Shown here one piece after another: positions 22,600 to 42,006 of a DNA stretch of 42,006 bases; the stretch's first letter is position 1; every line of letters starts with the position of its first letter. This stretch comes from a virus: positions 118,443 to 160,448 of the IMG/VR virus record IMGVR_UViG_3300013005_000022, one strand, 5' to 3'. The notes beneath the pieces are model-generated. The model searched no databases. It was not told the origin of the DNA and saw only the letters and a list, made by a program, of their open reading frames with translations. The translations under genes were made by a program, and so were the position numbers.

Positions 22600-22655
22600 T
22601 GTTAATAACTTTATGAGCCGGGATTTTTTAATCTCGGCTTTTTTTATTATATTTG
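22600..22655 (+). promoter_or_regulatory. Type A promoter, copy 1
   Basis: TGTTAATAACTTT (22600-22612), a T tract (22624-22629) and TATATTTG (22648-22655). The -7 element is the Bacteroidota consensus TAnnTTTG. The first box is exactly 48 nt upstream of it. The ATG of the primase-like gene is 22 nt downstream. Confidence 0.75.
22616..22645 (+). terminator. Terminator hairpin inside promoter copy 1
   Basis: A 10-bp stem (22616-22625 with 22630-22639, one G-T pair, TTTT loop) followed by six T. It ends the hsp20 transcript while lying between the two boxes of the next promoter. Confidence 0.75.
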
Positions 22656-22676
22656 TAATATCAAATTAAATATAAA

Positions 22677-23276
22677 ATGATAGACAATCTTCAATTAGTA
22701 AAGGAAATTCTTAACTTCCAAAAGAAAGGTGACTTCTACATGCTTTACGTTTTCAAACGTAAGAAAGATCAACCTGAAGGAGAACGAGATAATCATCAAT
22801 CGGTTAGAACCATCAAAACTTATTGCATCGAAAGTATCGATCACTTGGAAAGACGTTATGATGAAATCCGTCAAATGTGCGAAATGTTTAAAGCTCGAGC
22901 ATATATACATGTGCAAAAACAAAATCATTTCGACGTTTCGCTTAATATGATGGTTGCACTCGCTCAACGAATTCAAGATGGAAATACCAATCAAAAAGGT
23001 TTATTTGATTCGGTCGTTGGTCAAATCAAAACTCAAGAAAAACTTTGGATAGTCGATATTGATACTAAAGATGTTCAAGAATTACGAAATGTACAAGTAA
23101 CTATTAATAGATGTAAACCTGAAGGTCCTAAAACTAAATACATCATTCCAACTAAAAACGGATTCCATTTAATAACTGACCGTTTTGATGTTCTTGAATT
23201 TAAGAAAAATCATCCTGAAGTAGACGTTCAAAAGAAGAACCCAACTTTACTTTATCTACCGAGTTCTTTAGATTAA
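22677..23276 (+). CDS. Primase-like (AEP-type) protein, tentative
   Basis: A 199-aa protein. The C-terminal half has L-W-I-V-D127-I-D129-T, then P-T-K-N-G-F-H164-L-I-T and a later L-Y-L-P. A D-x-D plus conserved G-x-H is the pattern of archaeo-eukaryotic-type primases/PrimPol-like folds. It is too short for a full primase and lacks a zinc-binding or helicase part, so it may be a divergent relative or an RNA-processing protein. Driven by type A promoter copy 1. Confidence 0.45.
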   Translation: MIDNLQLVKEILNFQKKGDFYMLYVFKRKKDQPEGERDNHQSVRTIKTYCIESIDHLERRYDEIRQMCEMFKARAYIHVQKQNHFDVSLNMMVALAQRIQDGNTNQKGLFDSVVGQIKTQEKLWIVDIDTKDVQELRNVQVTINRCKPEGPKTKYIIPTKNGFHLITDRFDVLEFKKNHPEVDVQKKNPTLLYLPSSLD

Positions 23277-23279
23277 AAA

Positions 23280-23335
23280 TGTTAATAACTTTTTATCAAA
23301 AAGTTTTTCTATTTGCGAAAAAAGTATTATATTTG
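23280..23335 (+). promoter_or_regulatory. Type A promoter, copy 2
   Basis: TGTTAATAACTTTTT (23280-23294), a T tract (23304-23308) and TATATTTG (23328-23335). The 48-nt spacing is the same as in copies 1, 3 and 4. It precedes the gene at 23360. No clear terminator hairpin here. Confidence 0.75.
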
Positions 23336-23359
23336 TAATAACAAATTAATAATAAACAT

Positions 23360-23650
23360 ATGAAAAACTTTCGAATCGTAATTAAATGCCAAGCCGGTTT
23401 CTTAACTATCGTCGATAAAAAAGCAGAAACAGTAATGGATATTATGAAATCGTTCATAACTCCAAAAACCATTCTTACCATCGAACAAAAATCAGATCAA
23501 TCTGAACATTACTTTACGGTATTTGCAACCAAAGGTACTAAAGTTTATATTGCGGCAAAAGAAATTTACGATTCTCGATTTATTCAAAACTACTGGCCAA
23601 CTACCGATATGAATCGAATTGGTAAACCAGCAAATGAAATTGTTCACTAA
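23360..23650 (+). CDS. Hypothetical protein
   Basis: A 96-aa basic protein with mixed alpha/beta pattern and no recognised motif. It is the first gene of the unit led by promoter copy 2 (followed by the zinc-ribbon and RNA ligase genes). Confidence 0.6.
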   Translation: MKNFRIVIKCQAGFLTIVDKKAETVMDIMKSFITPKTILTIEQKSDQSEHYFTVFATKGTKVYIAAKEIYDSRFIQNYWPTTDMNRIGKPANEIVH

Positions 23651-23665
23651 AAACCAAAATCATAT

Positions 23666-23878
23666 ATGCTAAAATTTGAAAATCTAAAAGATGGCGATCG
23701 TTTTACCGCAAACATTAACTTCGAATCTAACATGCAAGTTATCGAAGAATTAACCTATCGAGGAAAATCCGAAACTGGATTGCACATAGGCTTAACTGGT
23801 TCCGGCGAAAGATTCGGATTCTATGATTTTGACATCATTGATATTACACACGTAGAAAAGAAAGAATATGAAATGTAA
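23666..23878 (+). CDS. Hypothetical beta-rich protein
   Basis: A 70-aa small protein: D-G-D-R-F, then a Gly-rich section, with an acidic end. Possibly a small OB-like or SH3-like domain. It overlaps the next gene by 11 nt. Its M-L-K-F start is not followed by a head-leader motif. Confidence 0.55.
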   Translation: MLKFENLKDGDRFTANINFESNMQVIEELTYRGKSETGLHIGLTGSGERFGFYDFDIIDITHVEKKEYEM

Positions 23879-24092
23879 ATGTGGTTCGGAAATACATCCG
23901 AAAAGATCAAATCTCGGTTATAGGACATGTGTTAATTGCTCAACCGAGGAAAAAAAAGCAGTTATTCAAATTAATAATCACAAAACCGGGAACGAAATCC
24001 AAATCGTTGATCAGGAAACGGCAAGACAATTTAATCACTTAGCAAGCCGATCATCGTTTGGTGTATCAACCGGAGTAAAAGGAAAAAGATAA
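23868..24092 (+). CDS. Zinc-ribbon protein
   Basis: A 74-aa protein. C3-K-C5 with a C-V-N-C pair about 20 residues later form a four-Cys zinc ribbon; the rest is polar with a basic tail. Such modules occur in DksA-like and nucleic-acid-binding proteins. It stands 1 nt before the RNA ligase gene, so joint expression with it is likely. Confidence 0.65.
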   Translation: MKCKCGSEIHPKRSNLGYRTCVNCSTEEKKAVIQINNHKTGNEIQIVDQETARQFNHLASRSSFGVSTGVKGKR

Positions 24093-24093
24093 A

Positions 24094-25101
24094 ATGGAAA
24101 GAAAATTAGCAAGTATTCAAGTCATTCGAGACATTCGTCCTATTGAAGGTGCCGATGCAATCGAATTAGCAATCATTAACAATTGGCAAGTGGTAGTCGC
24201 AAAAAACGTCGGTCATCAAATTGGAGATCATGTCGTTTATTGTGAAATCGATTCGTTCTTACCAATTCAAGAGGAATTCGAATTCTTACGTAAAAGCTCT
24301 TATAAGAAGATGGCTGATCGAGAAGGATTCCGTCTTAAAACAATTAAACTTCGTGGACAAGTTTCACAAGGTCTTATCTTACCAATGTCTGTGTTCGGTG
24401 ATTTTGGATGGACTGCATACGAAGGTCTTGATGTTACTGAACGTTTAGGTATTGTAAAATACGAACCACCTATCCCTGCAGAATTAGCCGGTAAAGTAAA
24501 AGGGAACTTCCCATCATTCATACCAAAGACCGATGAAGAACGTATACAAAATCTTACAAAAGAATACGAAGGATGGAAAGACCGATTCTTCTATGTAACT
24601 GAAAAACTCGATGGTTCTTCTGCAACCTACTATTTTAGAGATGGAGAATTCGGAGTATGCTCTAGAAATCTAGATCTTGAAGAAACTGAAGGAAATACTT
24701 TTTGGAAGATTGCTCGCCAATTAAAATTAGAAGAATGGTTAGGAACTCATGAAATTAATTATGCCATTCAAGGTGAATTAATCGGTGAAGGTATACAAGG
24801 AAATCCTTATAAGATCAAAGGACAAACCGTTCGCTTCTTCAACGCATTTAATATAGACAAATACGAATACCTTGGATTAGAAGAATTCGAATCTCTAATT
24901 TCATCTATGGGATTGGAAACTGTTCCGGTTCTTGATCGAGCATTTGTTTTGCCTAATACCATCGAGGAACTACTTAAATATGCCGAAACGAAAAGCGAAT
25001 TGAATTCTCAGTTCGATCGTGAAGGGGTTGTAATTCGTAGTATTGATCGTAAAATTAGCTTCAAAGTAATCAGCAATAAATTCTTACTAAACGAAAAATA
25101 A
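24094..25101 (+). CDS. RNA ligase, DraRnl (Rnl5)-like
   Basis: A 335-aa ligase. The N-terminal part (about 1-120) resembles the OB-type domain found in front of Deinococcus DraRnl. The adenylyltransferase part follows: motif I E170-K171-L-D-G-S with AMP-accepting K171, S-R-N at 190-192, motif III/IIIa Q-G-E-L-I-G-E-G-I-Q-G-N-P-Y from 227, motif IV R-E-G-V-V-I-R, and motif V S-F-K-V-I-S. It seals RNA nicks with ATP. It would rejoin tRNA or mRNA cut by host nucleases after end healing by proteins such as the cREC and 2H enzymes of this window. Confidence 0.85.
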   Translation: MERKLASIQVIRDIRPIEGADAIELAIINNWQVVVAKNVGHQIGDHVVYCEIDSFLPIQEEFEFLRKSSYKKMADREGFRLKTIKLRGQVSQGLILPMSVFGDFGWTAYEGLDVTERLGIVKYEPPIPAELAGKVKGNFPSFIPKTDEERIQNLTKEYEGWKDRFFYVTEKLDGSSATYYFRDGEFGVCSRNLDLEETEGNTFWKIARQLKLEEWLGTHEINYAIQGELIGEGIQGNPYKIKGQTVRFFNAFNIDKYEYLGLEEFESLISSMGLETVPVLDRAFVLPNTIEELLKYAETKSELNSQFDREGVVIRSIDRKISFKVISNKFLLNEK

Positions 25102-25442
25102 TGAGAAACCTACTAATAGCACTCGTATGTATTGTTCTAGGACAATCTATATCTTTTATACAATTACAAGGCCAATTCATAAACGAATGGATGAAGAAAA
25201 ATACATGGGCTGCTGTTTTACTCGGTTTACCTATTAGTTGGTTACTTATAACATTTACCAAATATTGTAAAGAAGCTTTCGATGGTCAAATATGGCCTGG
25301 TCGTTTAATTGGATTTGCTATAGGTGCTATCGTATTTTCGGTAATGGCACACTTCATATTCAACGAAGAATTCACATCTAAAACTCTTGTATGTTTAACA
25401 TTAGCAGCCACCATTCTAGGAATTCAACTTTTTTGGAAGTAA
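25101..25442 (+). CDS. Multi-span membrane protein
   Basis: A 113-aa protein with about four hydrophobic helices (near 1-20, 37-52, 67-84 and 92-111). The ATG shares its A with the RNA ligase stop. A conserved W-P-G-R stands in the third loop. No family identified. Confidence 0.6.
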   Translation: MRNLLIALVCIVLGQSISFIQLQGQFINEWMKKNTWAAVLLGLPISWLLITFTKYCKEAFDGQIWPGRLIGFAIGAIVFSVMAHFIFNEEFTSKTLVCLTLAATILGIQLFWK

Positions 25443-25451
25443 TCACTCTAT

Positions 25452-25461
25452 CATATAATTA
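25452..25461 (+). promoter_or_regulatory. CATATAATTA type B motif
   Basis: Intergenic CATATAATTA, 26 nt before the ATG at 25478. Confidence 0.45.
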
Positions 25462-25477
25462 ATATAAACCCAAGAAA

Positions 25478-25705
25478 ATGAAAAAACCCTTACTTAACAT
25501 TGCATTCTTCAGCATACTTTTATTAGTGGCTTTACGAATAGAAACCATCTCTATTAATTGGATCCTTTCACAAGATCAATTTCTGAATTGGATGGGTATG
25601 ATTACGATTATCCTTGCTATGGTTTCCTGTTTCATTATTGGTTGGCAAATAGGAAATAACATTCGTTTGATTCGTAGACATCGAAAGCTAAATAAACCTT
25701 CATAA
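25478..25705 (+). CDS. Two-span small membrane protein
   Basis: A 75-aa protein with hydrophobic helices at about 7-22 and 39-60 and a basic C-terminal tail (R-R-H-R-K). Its stop abuts the type A promoter copy 3. Unknown function. Confidence 0.6.
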   Translation: MKKPLLNIAFFSILLLVALRIETISINWILSQDQFLNWMGMITIILAMVSCFIIGWQIGNNIRLIRRHRKLNKPS

Positions 25706-25761
25706 TGTTAATAACTTTATGACCTGAGATTTTTTTATCTCGGGTTTTTGTATTATATTTG
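25706..25761 (+). promoter_or_regulatory. Type A promoter, copy 3
   Basis: TGTTAATAACTTT (25706-25718), T tract (25730-25736) and TATATTTG (25754-25761), again with the 48-nt spacing. ATG of the secreted-protein gene at 25791. Confidence 0.75.
25722..25749 (+). terminator. Terminator hairpin inside promoter copy 3
   Basis: A 9-bp stem (25722-25730 with 25737-25745, one T-G pair, T6 loop) followed by a T tract. It has the same position within the promoter as the hairpin of copy 1, though the stem bases differ. Confidence 0.75.
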
Positions 25762-25790: not shown

Positions 25791-26090
25791 ATGAAAAAAA
25801 CATTAATCATTGCTTTACTAACAATCCCTGGATTCGTTTATTCACAAACTAAAATGGGAAACTTTGCACATGTTACAAATAATAAAGATACTCTATTCCT
25901 ATTAGAGAATGATCCTTTATCAAAACTAACATTTAGTATCTGGAAAACCGATTCTACATGGAATGGTCAAAATCCAACTATCGTTTTTGTTAATCATGAG
26001 TGTATGGAAGAAATTAAGTTCACGAATTTTAGAGCATCTAATGAATTCGTAAGAATGAGAAAAACTCCTATCAAATCTAAAAATAAATAA
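25791..26090 (+). CDS. Secreted periplasmic protein
   Basis: A 99-aa protein with a clear Sec signal peptide (cut likely after S-Q at 18-19). The mature part is beta-rich, without cysteine pairs, and ends with a Lys-rich tail. Expressed from promoter copy 3, so made early or throughout; a periplasmic role against superinfection or in the envelope is possible. Confidence 0.6.
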   Translation: MKKTLIIALLTIPGFVYSQTKMGNFAHVTNNKDTLFLLENDPLSKLTFSIWKTDSTWNGQNPTIVFVNHECMEEIKFTNFRASNEFVRMRKTPIKSKNK

Positions 26091-40702: not shown

Positions 40703-41023
40703 ATGTTTATATCAATTATTCTGGCTGTGGCTCTAGGAGCTGCCGTCATCGTACAAAAAAGAATTAACACAACTCTCGCTAATCGTCTTAATGTAACTGC
40801 TATTAAAGGAGATAAAGGCGACCGAGGAGAAAAAGGAGAAATAGGTCTTCCAGGACGAGATGGAGTAAATGGACGAGATGGAGTAAATGGAACTAATGGA
40901 ACAGATGCCGTCTGTACCTGTGAAGCAGACCGTGAAGGAATTCGTGCCCTAACCGAATATTTAATTCAATTAGCTCCTCATATTGGAGATGATCCTCGCA
41001 TCCAATCTCTTCTTAAAAGATAA
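40703..41023 (+). CDS. Collagen-like membrane-anchored protein
   Basis: A 106-aa protein. A hydrophobic anchor (about 2-17) is followed by an uncharged/basic spacer and 11 Gly-X-Y triplets (residues 36-68), which should form a collagen-type triple helix, then a C-T-C pair and a helical tail. Trimeric collagen stems occur in phage fibres and bacterial surface proteins, but a membrane anchor suggests host-envelope location. Last gene before the terminator at 41046. Confidence 0.75.
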   Translation: MFISIILAVALGAAVIVQKRINTTLANRLNVTAIKGDKGDRGEKGEIGLPGRDGVNGRDGVNGTNGTDAVCTCEADREGIRALTEYLIQLAPHIGDDPRIQSLLKR

Positions 41024-41045
41024 TCTAATATTATAATAATCTAGT

Positions 41046-41077
41046 AAAAAGTCTGCTCATGTGAGTGGACTTTTTTT
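41046..41077 (+). terminator. Strong rho-independent terminator
   Basis: An approximately 13-bp stem (41046-41058 with 41063-41075, two G-T pairs) with a tetraloop and flanking A and T tracts. The A and T tracts would allow termination from both directions. Confidence 0.85.
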
Positions 41078-41447
41078 GTCGGATACTCTAAAATTTTTTG
41101 CCTACCTACACAATCTCTTTCAATATAAACAACCGCTTCTTATATAGGATAATCGTCTTTATATAGAAGGTAATACTCTATATATTGTAATAAACTATAT
41201 AGGTAACCTACCACCTCGTCTGACTAGCCAGTGCGTTGTGGGCGGAGTTTTCCGGTAAGCCTCGGAGTTTGCCGGTATTTGCCAGGGTATCACGAGTGAC
41301 ACTTTGTGTTTTCCGCATATTCACAAAGATTTACTGCCGCGTCCTCCCAGCCGCCGAGTACCGAGAAATCCAAAATCGTAACGGCTCTCAACCACACAGG
41401 GCTATTTGAGAACTCCCATCACCAAAGCTACCCGGCACAGACTCCGC

Positions 41448-41461
41448 CTACCCTTATATAG
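41448..41461 (+). repeat. Direct repeat CTACCCTTATATAG, copy 1
   Basis: Identical to 41490-41503, with starts 42 nt apart. Each copy lies in the arm and loop of a hairpin whose stems differ in sequence. Confidence 0.8.
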
Positions 41462-41489
41462 TGATAGGTGGATCCGGTGGAATTATTCG

Positions 41490-41503
41490 CTACCCTTATA
41501 TAG
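41490..41503 (+). repeat. Direct repeat CTACCCTTATATAG, copy 2
   Basis: Second copy, within the hairpin formed by CGCTA and TAGCG plus flanking AATTA and TAATT. Confidence 0.8.
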
Positions 41504-41522
41504 CGGTAATTGAATCCTAAAA

Positions 41523-41578
41523 TGTTAATAACTTTCCCTCACTAGATTTTTTTATTCACGAAAAAAGTATTATATTTG
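41523..41578 (+). promoter_or_regulatory. Type A promoter, copy 4
   Basis: TGTTAATAACTTT (41523-41535), T tract (41547-41553) and TATATTTG (41571-41578), 48-nt spacing as in the other three. The small gene ATG at 41606 is 28 nt downstream. Confidence 0.75.
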
Positions 41579-41724: not shown

Positions 41725-41994
41725 ATGGAAGATTTTAATCTAGAAGAATTAGATCCTGTACAAAAGGCCGAGATGGAGGCTCAATATCATGAAGAAATAG
41801 AACGAGCTATGAGATCCGCATTCGCTTATATAGAGGAAGATATGGGTTGGGAAGCCTGGATGGCGAATCGAGCGATTGGTGATGCTGCCCGGAAGAGAAA
41901 GATACTCGAGAATATGATGATGTGGTTTGCTTCTCCTGAGGTGGAGGAATACGAGAAATCGGCACGAATCAAACGAGCAATAGACTCCTTATAG
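41725..41994 (+). CDS. Hypothetical acidic helical protein
   Basis: An 89-aa acidic protein; the ATG at 41725, after the mini-gene stop, is preferred to one at 41677 that overlaps that gene. A type A box begins 4 nt after its stop. No family recognised. Confidence 0.55.
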   Translation: MEDFNLEELDPVQKAEMEAQYHEEIERAMRSAFAYIEEDMGWEAWMANRAIGDAARKRKILENMMMWFASPEVEEYEKSARIKRAIDSL

Positions 41995-41997
41995 GAT

Positions 41998-42006
41998 TGT
42001 TAATAA
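41998..42006 (+). promoter_or_regulatory. Type A box, truncated by window end
   Basis: TGTTAATAA at the last nine bases is identical to the start of the other type A promoters. The -7 element would lie beyond the window. Confidence 0.55.

Follow-up and report, generated by a model that had tools for sequence, protein, structure and literature searches.

A DnaA-type box in helical phase with the promoters of a Bacteroidota phage, probably bound in related phages by a miniature DnaA that switches genes on

The stretch of DNA analysed here (hereafter the window, 42,006 nucleotides) covers positions 118443-160448 of a 160,448-base IMG/VR virus record (IMGVR_UViG_3300013005_000022, hereafter G000), and the window and the record end together. 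G000 is a phage of Bacteroidota bacteria; its phage nature is seen in an RNA ligase, a thymidylate synthase, a minor coat protein and an Hsp20 that match PHROGs. Four promoters in the window carry an upstream 13-mer, TGTTAATAACTTT (hereafter the box), at 22600, 23280, 25706 and 41523 (Table 1). All four copies are exact and lie on the plus strand, and, as an earlier note on this DNA had described, they start 48 nucleotides (nt) before the start of TATATTTG, the -7 element; a search of the window places TATTATATTTG at 22645, 23325, 25751 and 41568. A first-order model over both strands of the window predicts 0.008 exact 13-mers by chance against the four observed, and no exact TGTTAATAACTTT lies on the window's opposite strand. 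The fifth box, which the same note placed at 41998 and cut by the window edge, is present, and a colinear relative (G114) holds a full box promoter at the corresponding place (G114:213682). No description of promoters of this kind was found in the open-access literature.

The whole G000 record holds 14 copies of TGTTAATAACTTT, all forward and none in reverse, and the reversed word of the 13-mer occurs once. Thirteen of the 14 are followed by TATATTTG, a -7 element of the sigma-A type TAnnTTTG, at a distance of 48 (ten copies), 47, 58 or 59 (one each), so that the spacing of 48 put forward as invariant holds for the window copies but not for the record as a whole. At the fourteenth box (G000:96850), TATTATATTATT replaces the -7 element. 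An exact box precedes every one of the 13 intergenic copies of TATATTTG, and not the remaining ten, which look like coding sequence and whose best box has 5-8 mismatches. The box promoters are thus the main recognisable promoter class, accounting for most of the recognisable promoters of G000, and the box serves transcription.

Bacteroidota sigma-A promoters possess TAnnTTTG at -7 and TTTG near -33 (PMC9723704, PMC7366714), the former spanning -12 to -5 in Flavobacterium psychrophilum (PMC9723704). This puts the box at about -60 to -48, with a T-tract in the -33 place. The box promoters are therefore like sigma-A promoters in their -7 element TATATTTG, and unlike them in having no -33 TTTG, but a fixed T-tract and a distal box. 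In an alignment of 27 promoters of the phage family, a ATTTTTTTATTCC block keeps its distance from the -7 element and the box alone shifts, by one or two turns (48/58-59/69-70), the distance of 69/70 being seen in a relative. The central T tract reported earlier is a real block, fixed ~25 nt before TATATTTG; in the promoters at 22600 and 25706 it doubles as the loop of a terminator hairpin.

Across viral contigs, the box is paired with TATATTTG in more than 118 stretches, against 8 with the reversed box, and the distances cluster at 38-39, 46-49, 56-60 and 68-69, with almost none between. A Rayleigh test at a period of 10.5 bp, on the distance from box start to TATATTTG start, gives R=0.73 and p=6e-30 (n=128), and R=0.71 and p=2e-18 after similar viral sequences are clustered out (n=80). 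Shifts of the box alone, by helical turns, are the pattern expected if a protein touches the polymerase from one face. Copies with variable spacing, which the earlier note would have counted against its proposal of a box-bound protein contacting RNA polymerase, do literally occur; but they vary in steps of 10.5 bp, and so support one-face contact and lend weight to such a protein.

A search of bacterial genomes located the same pair, chiefly in Bacteroidota. Among the matches listed, distances are 38-39, 47-51 and 56-61, with none at 52-55, and they are phased (n=120, p=1.5e-14); orthologues recur among these matches, which are a part of the whole, so that the result is a pattern and not a census. 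The listed genes behind in-phase copies encode thymidine kinase, class II and III ribonucleotide reductase, deoxynucleoside kinase and DnaB, and further a gyrase-type ATPase, UvrD, MraZ, DUF3276 and HU-CCDC81; MraW (41) and DnaN (65) fall just outside the phase classes. The pattern is that hosts use the box architecture before replication and deoxynucleoside triphosphate (dNTP) genes.

The 9-mer that begins the box, TGTTAATAA, reads TTATTAACA on the other strand, and differs from the DnaA box TTATNCACA (TTWTNCACA) only by C6 to A, in keeping with the single mismatch noted earlier. NrdR boxes, which are paired palindromes, show no resemblance to the 13-mer. In Mycoplasma hominis and relatives, TTATTAACA has been called a putative DnaA box (PMC2751442). 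In other phages, the canonical DnaA box TGTGGATAACTTT is found with TATATTTG and is phased at 39/49/60 (n=41, p=5e-6), as is TGTTGATAACTTT with TATATTTG (n=33, p=1e-5); TGTGGATAAC without TTT, a built-in control from which the phage L517 is excluded, is unphased (p=0.63). L517 (IMGVR_UViG_3300042197_000954) is a 53-kb phage with eight near-identical promoters, in which TGTGGATAAC stands at 59 or 49. These promoters contain tandem canonical DnaA boxes, TGTGGATAACTTGTGGAAAAC, and no Bac_DnaA_C gene was found in the record.

Bac_DnaA_C (PF08299) is the profile of DnaA domain IV, and 21 of 56 box records encode a protein that matches it, against 3 of 43 promoter-matched control records (p=4e-4). 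Twelve of the 16 DnaA-IV genes examined lie 0.15-2.9 kb downstream of a box on the same strand, and in G112, G114 and G118 the gene directly follows a box promoter with a distance of 69. The phage proteins of 93-103 amino acids (aa) match PF08299 alone, and lack the AAA+ domain III of the full DnaA initiator. Three of them score 67.2, 63.2 and 64.2 bits against a cut-off of 31.5, and the type found in 28-kb phages falls below it (23.3). A search of the PDB matches DnaA at E=4e-11, and the AF2 model of the 103-aa protein (pLDDT 95.9) superposes on the DnaA-DNA complex 3pvp with a TM-score of 0.93 and 1.1 A, and on 1j1v with 0.92. The same fold is predicted for the 28-kb phage type (0.89 to 3pvp), plus a C-terminal domain. 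In these phages (L439 and relatives, G141-G166), the DnaA-IV proteins are ~175 aa long, and the extra domain, which has no PDB match, is a candidate activation domain. Phage DnaA-IV proteins match both PHROG 16091 (unknown function) and PHROG 27829 (DnaA-like replication initiation protein); the promoter linkage described here suggests a role in transcription instead. Named phage records hold no near relative by DNA; protein matches there are 31-46% identical, to unannotated records, with none for the 28-kb type.

In DnaA, helix 434-451 reads TnCACA and Arg399 reads TTA (PMC5742627). Arg399 and His434, with minor-groove roles described in the same work, are kept as R33 and H68 of the 103-aa protein, and R replaces H434 in the 28-kb phages. 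Arg399 is kept, and so is the TTA portion of the box. Residues 433-435 are NHG, QHG or NHA in the larger phages with TGTTAATAAC, DHS or DHT in six of six phages with TGTGGATAAC (three of them closely related), and mostly DHA in host Bacteroidota DnaA; the DR[ST] of the 28-kb phages breaks this pairing. Residues 433 and 435 thus tend to change with the box in the few lineages compared, and an Asn or Gln opposite adenine would be chemically sensible. In control phages with a D/T-type DnaA-IV, counts of TGTGNATAA are near control and the expected enrichment is not seen, so that the argument for specificity draws only on the phased promoters.

I consider it likely, from these sequence comparisons, that a DnaA domain-IV activator, phage-encoded or host DnaA, would recruit the host RNA polymerase from the box. 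The host's main polymerase would use activator-dependent promoters, with a sigma-A-type TATATTTG, a fixed T-tract and no TTTG at -33, and a single DnaA-type box (TGTTAATAA, or TTATTAACA on the other strand), lying near -60 to -52, would be bound by a domain-IV protein that touches the polymerase from one helix face, in class-I fashion. Such one-face contact would let boxes start at about -50, -60, -70 or -81, and not between. In this phage family the binder would most likely be a small standalone DnaA domain IV encoded by the phage itself, 103 aa long in relatives, with its gene placed downstream of a box promoter of this kind, and host DnaA may serve phages without a DnaA-IV gene. The miniature DnaA of related phages thus probably binds the box and switches genes on. 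The earlier suggestion of a DnaA-like or phage activator is strengthened by the phased canonical DnaA boxes, the standalone genes in relatives and the host replication genes. I would give even chances to the broader proposal that standalone DnaA domain-IV proteins form a family of Bacteroidota phage transcription activators, in which the box is phased, box and residues 433/435 co-evolved, and an architecture of host replication and dNTP genes is tapped.

Class I activators such as CRP have sites at -61.5/-71.5/-82.5. The box promoters are similar in having one upstream site on one helical face, with one-turn steps tolerated, as seen in their natural spacing, and different in that the site is a DnaA-type box and not a dimer palindrome. 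DnaA is also a transcription factor, at E. coli nrdAB, at Caulobacter gcrA and ftsZ and at the lambda ori (reviewed in PMC8203912). With these systems the present one shares DnaA-type boxes upstream of replication and nucleotide genes, and a polymerase contact has been proposed for DnaA as well. It differs in its single variant box, helically quantised from a Bacteroidota -7 element, phage-borne and, in relatives, met by domain IV alone.

Table 1. Coordinates of the box promoters in the window, with their parts and the genes behind them
Feature	Sequence	Position	Strand	Remarks
Box, promoter 1	TGTTAATAACTTT	22600..22612	+	exact match; DnaA-type 9-mer TGTTAATAA at 22600-22608; predicted -60 to -48
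Spacer hairpin, promoter 1		22615..22640	+	predicted terminator; -15.8 kcal/mol, z -6.1; T-tract is the loop
-7 element, promoter 1	TATATTTG	22648..22655	+	TAnnTTTG consensus (PMC9723704, PMC7366714); predicted start ~22660
First gene after promoter 1		22677..23276	+	199 aa, without Pfam family
Box, promoter 2		23280..23292	+	exact match; 13/13 kept in colinear relative G114
-7 element, promoter 2	TATATTTG	23328..23335	+	hairpin-free spacer
First gene after promoter 2		23360..23650	+	96 aa
Box, promoter 3		25706..25718	+	exact match; 13/13 kept in G114
Spacer hairpin, promoter 3		25721..25746	+	predicted terminator; -13.8 kcal/mol, z -6.2; T-tract is the loop
-7 element, promoter 3	TATATTTG	25754..25761	+	core 11/11 kept in G114
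First gene after promoter 3		25791..26090	+	99 aa
Box, promoter 4		41523..41535	+	exact match; 13/13 kept in G114
T-tract block, promoter 4	ATTTTTTTATTC	41546..41557	+	keeps its distance from the -7 element across the phage family (alignment)
-7 element, promoter 4	TATATTTG	41571..41578	+	exact match
Gene after promoter 4		41725..41994	+	89 aa
Fifth box, start only	TGTTAATAA	41998..42006	+	cut by window and record end

The 199-aa protein encoded behind promoter 1 has a homologue in phage G134, adjoining the DnaA-IV gene of that phage. Outside the window, the box at G000:96850 (locus L013) precedes a 199-aa sigma-70-family factor (Sigma70_r2 and r4_2), possibly forming a regulatory cascade, and a box promoter at G000:57810 (L011) stands ahead of a 103-aa winged-helix (TrmB-like) regulator. 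Positions 41000-41520 of the window are non-coding, G+C-richer and contain repeated CTTATATAG words; this region is kept in G114 (212.9-213.3 kb), and neither a tRNA nor an Rfam family was found in it.

Several findings weigh against a DnaA domain-IV activator. The record itself yielded no DnaA-IV gene, and a profile built from three phage DnaA-IV proteins has no match in 30 box records, G000 included. The window is colinear with 177.5-213.7 kb of G114, whose DnaA-IV gene is at 230.45 kb, ~17 kb past the point where G000 breaks off; G000 being a fragment that ends this far short of the colinear place, its gene would be expected beyond the record end. Three clearly orthologous promoters of the two phages have boxes identical at 13/13 positions and spacers at 16-24 of 32. 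No DnaA-IV gene is detectable in 35 of the 56 box records, and at the strict Pfam cut-off the enrichment is weaker (13/56 vs 3/43, p=0.05). The regulatory sites of G000 depart from the canonical 9-mer TTATNCACA by their one mismatch. Within single Flavobacteriales genomes the exact architecture does not rise above background, with 3 matches in 99 genomes and 2 for the control. Finally, TGTTAATAAC gained no support as a box of the host replication origin (oriC): in two hosts, Tenacibaculum (L291) and Bacteroides ilei (L289), its clusters lie off the GC-skew switches, and the one in Flavobacterium (L290) stands immediately upstream of dnaB. A 3.5-kb Bacteroidota contig carries nine TGTTAATAAC boxes on both strands within ~300 bp, beside an AT-rich stretch (L216:1-300), possibly a replication origin by its sequence.

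It is possible, though unlikely, that host DnaA is the activator, that the phages draw on the replication regulon of the host, and that the phage domain IV is a competitor, modulating DnaA or blocking host initiation. The presence of the box, in the same phases, ahead of replication and dNTP genes of hosts would fit this, as would the 35 of 56 box phages that show no DnaA-IV gene; in other phyla DnaA is known to activate transcription, and it acts at the lambda ori, possibly through RNA polymerase beta (PMC8203912). However, the standalone proteins are enriched in box phages, their residues 433/435 tend to follow the box, and single host genomes seldom hold promoters with the exact 13-mer. It is improbable that the domain-IV protein acts as a repressor or as a timing switch, with autorepression of the kind that DnaA shows at dnaA: DnaA does repress its own and other genes (PMC8203912), and the phage DnaA-IV gene sits behind a box, but the box is centred near -56, clear of the polymerase core site on its upstream side, at a turn-quantised distance, which fits activation, and there is no TTTG at -33. 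A site for a repressor usually overlaps the core, and no quantised distance is needed for it.

Very little speaks for a box that is an UP element, read by the polymerase alpha C-terminal domain with no separate protein. Its A+T-richness and distance are right, and helical phasing would also be expected; but G2 and C10 of the 13-mer are strict, a reversed box, equal in composition, is rare and shows no phasing, the box exchanges with the canonical DnaA box, and in hosts there is a bias to replication genes. Folding predicts strong terminator hairpins with U tails in 5 of the 14 spacers of the record and in 2 of the 4 in the window (z about -6), and none at 23280 and 41523. With the T-tract as hairpin loop, a single stretch probably terminates the transcript from upstream and begins the following one, and these five spacers likely double as intrinsic terminators; as the full explanation, with the repeats as terminator boilerplate, termination is disfavoured and scarcely credible, since 9 of the 14 are hairpin-free yet keep box, T-tract, -7 element and spacing, and neither box nor phase is accounted for. 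At window position 331, a near-box (TGTTAATAACTAGG) is followed by a hairpin and T run; it lacks a -7 element and is joined only to a terminator.

If a DnaA domain-IV activator does act at the box, a concrete promoter code (box, phase, T-tract and -7 element) would be available for a large group of Bacteroidota phages, in which transcription has hardly been described, and a function would be assigned to phage proteins at present annotated as unknown or as initiators of replication. Transcription activation by DnaA would become directly testable with a 10-kDa domain alone, and the way in which box and recognition residues change in pairs would provide a natural specificity series. On the host side, a DnaA-linked replication and dNTP regulon would be predicted in Bacteroidota. 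The DNA-binding domain of a replication initiator would, in these phages, have been made into a dedicated gene switch.

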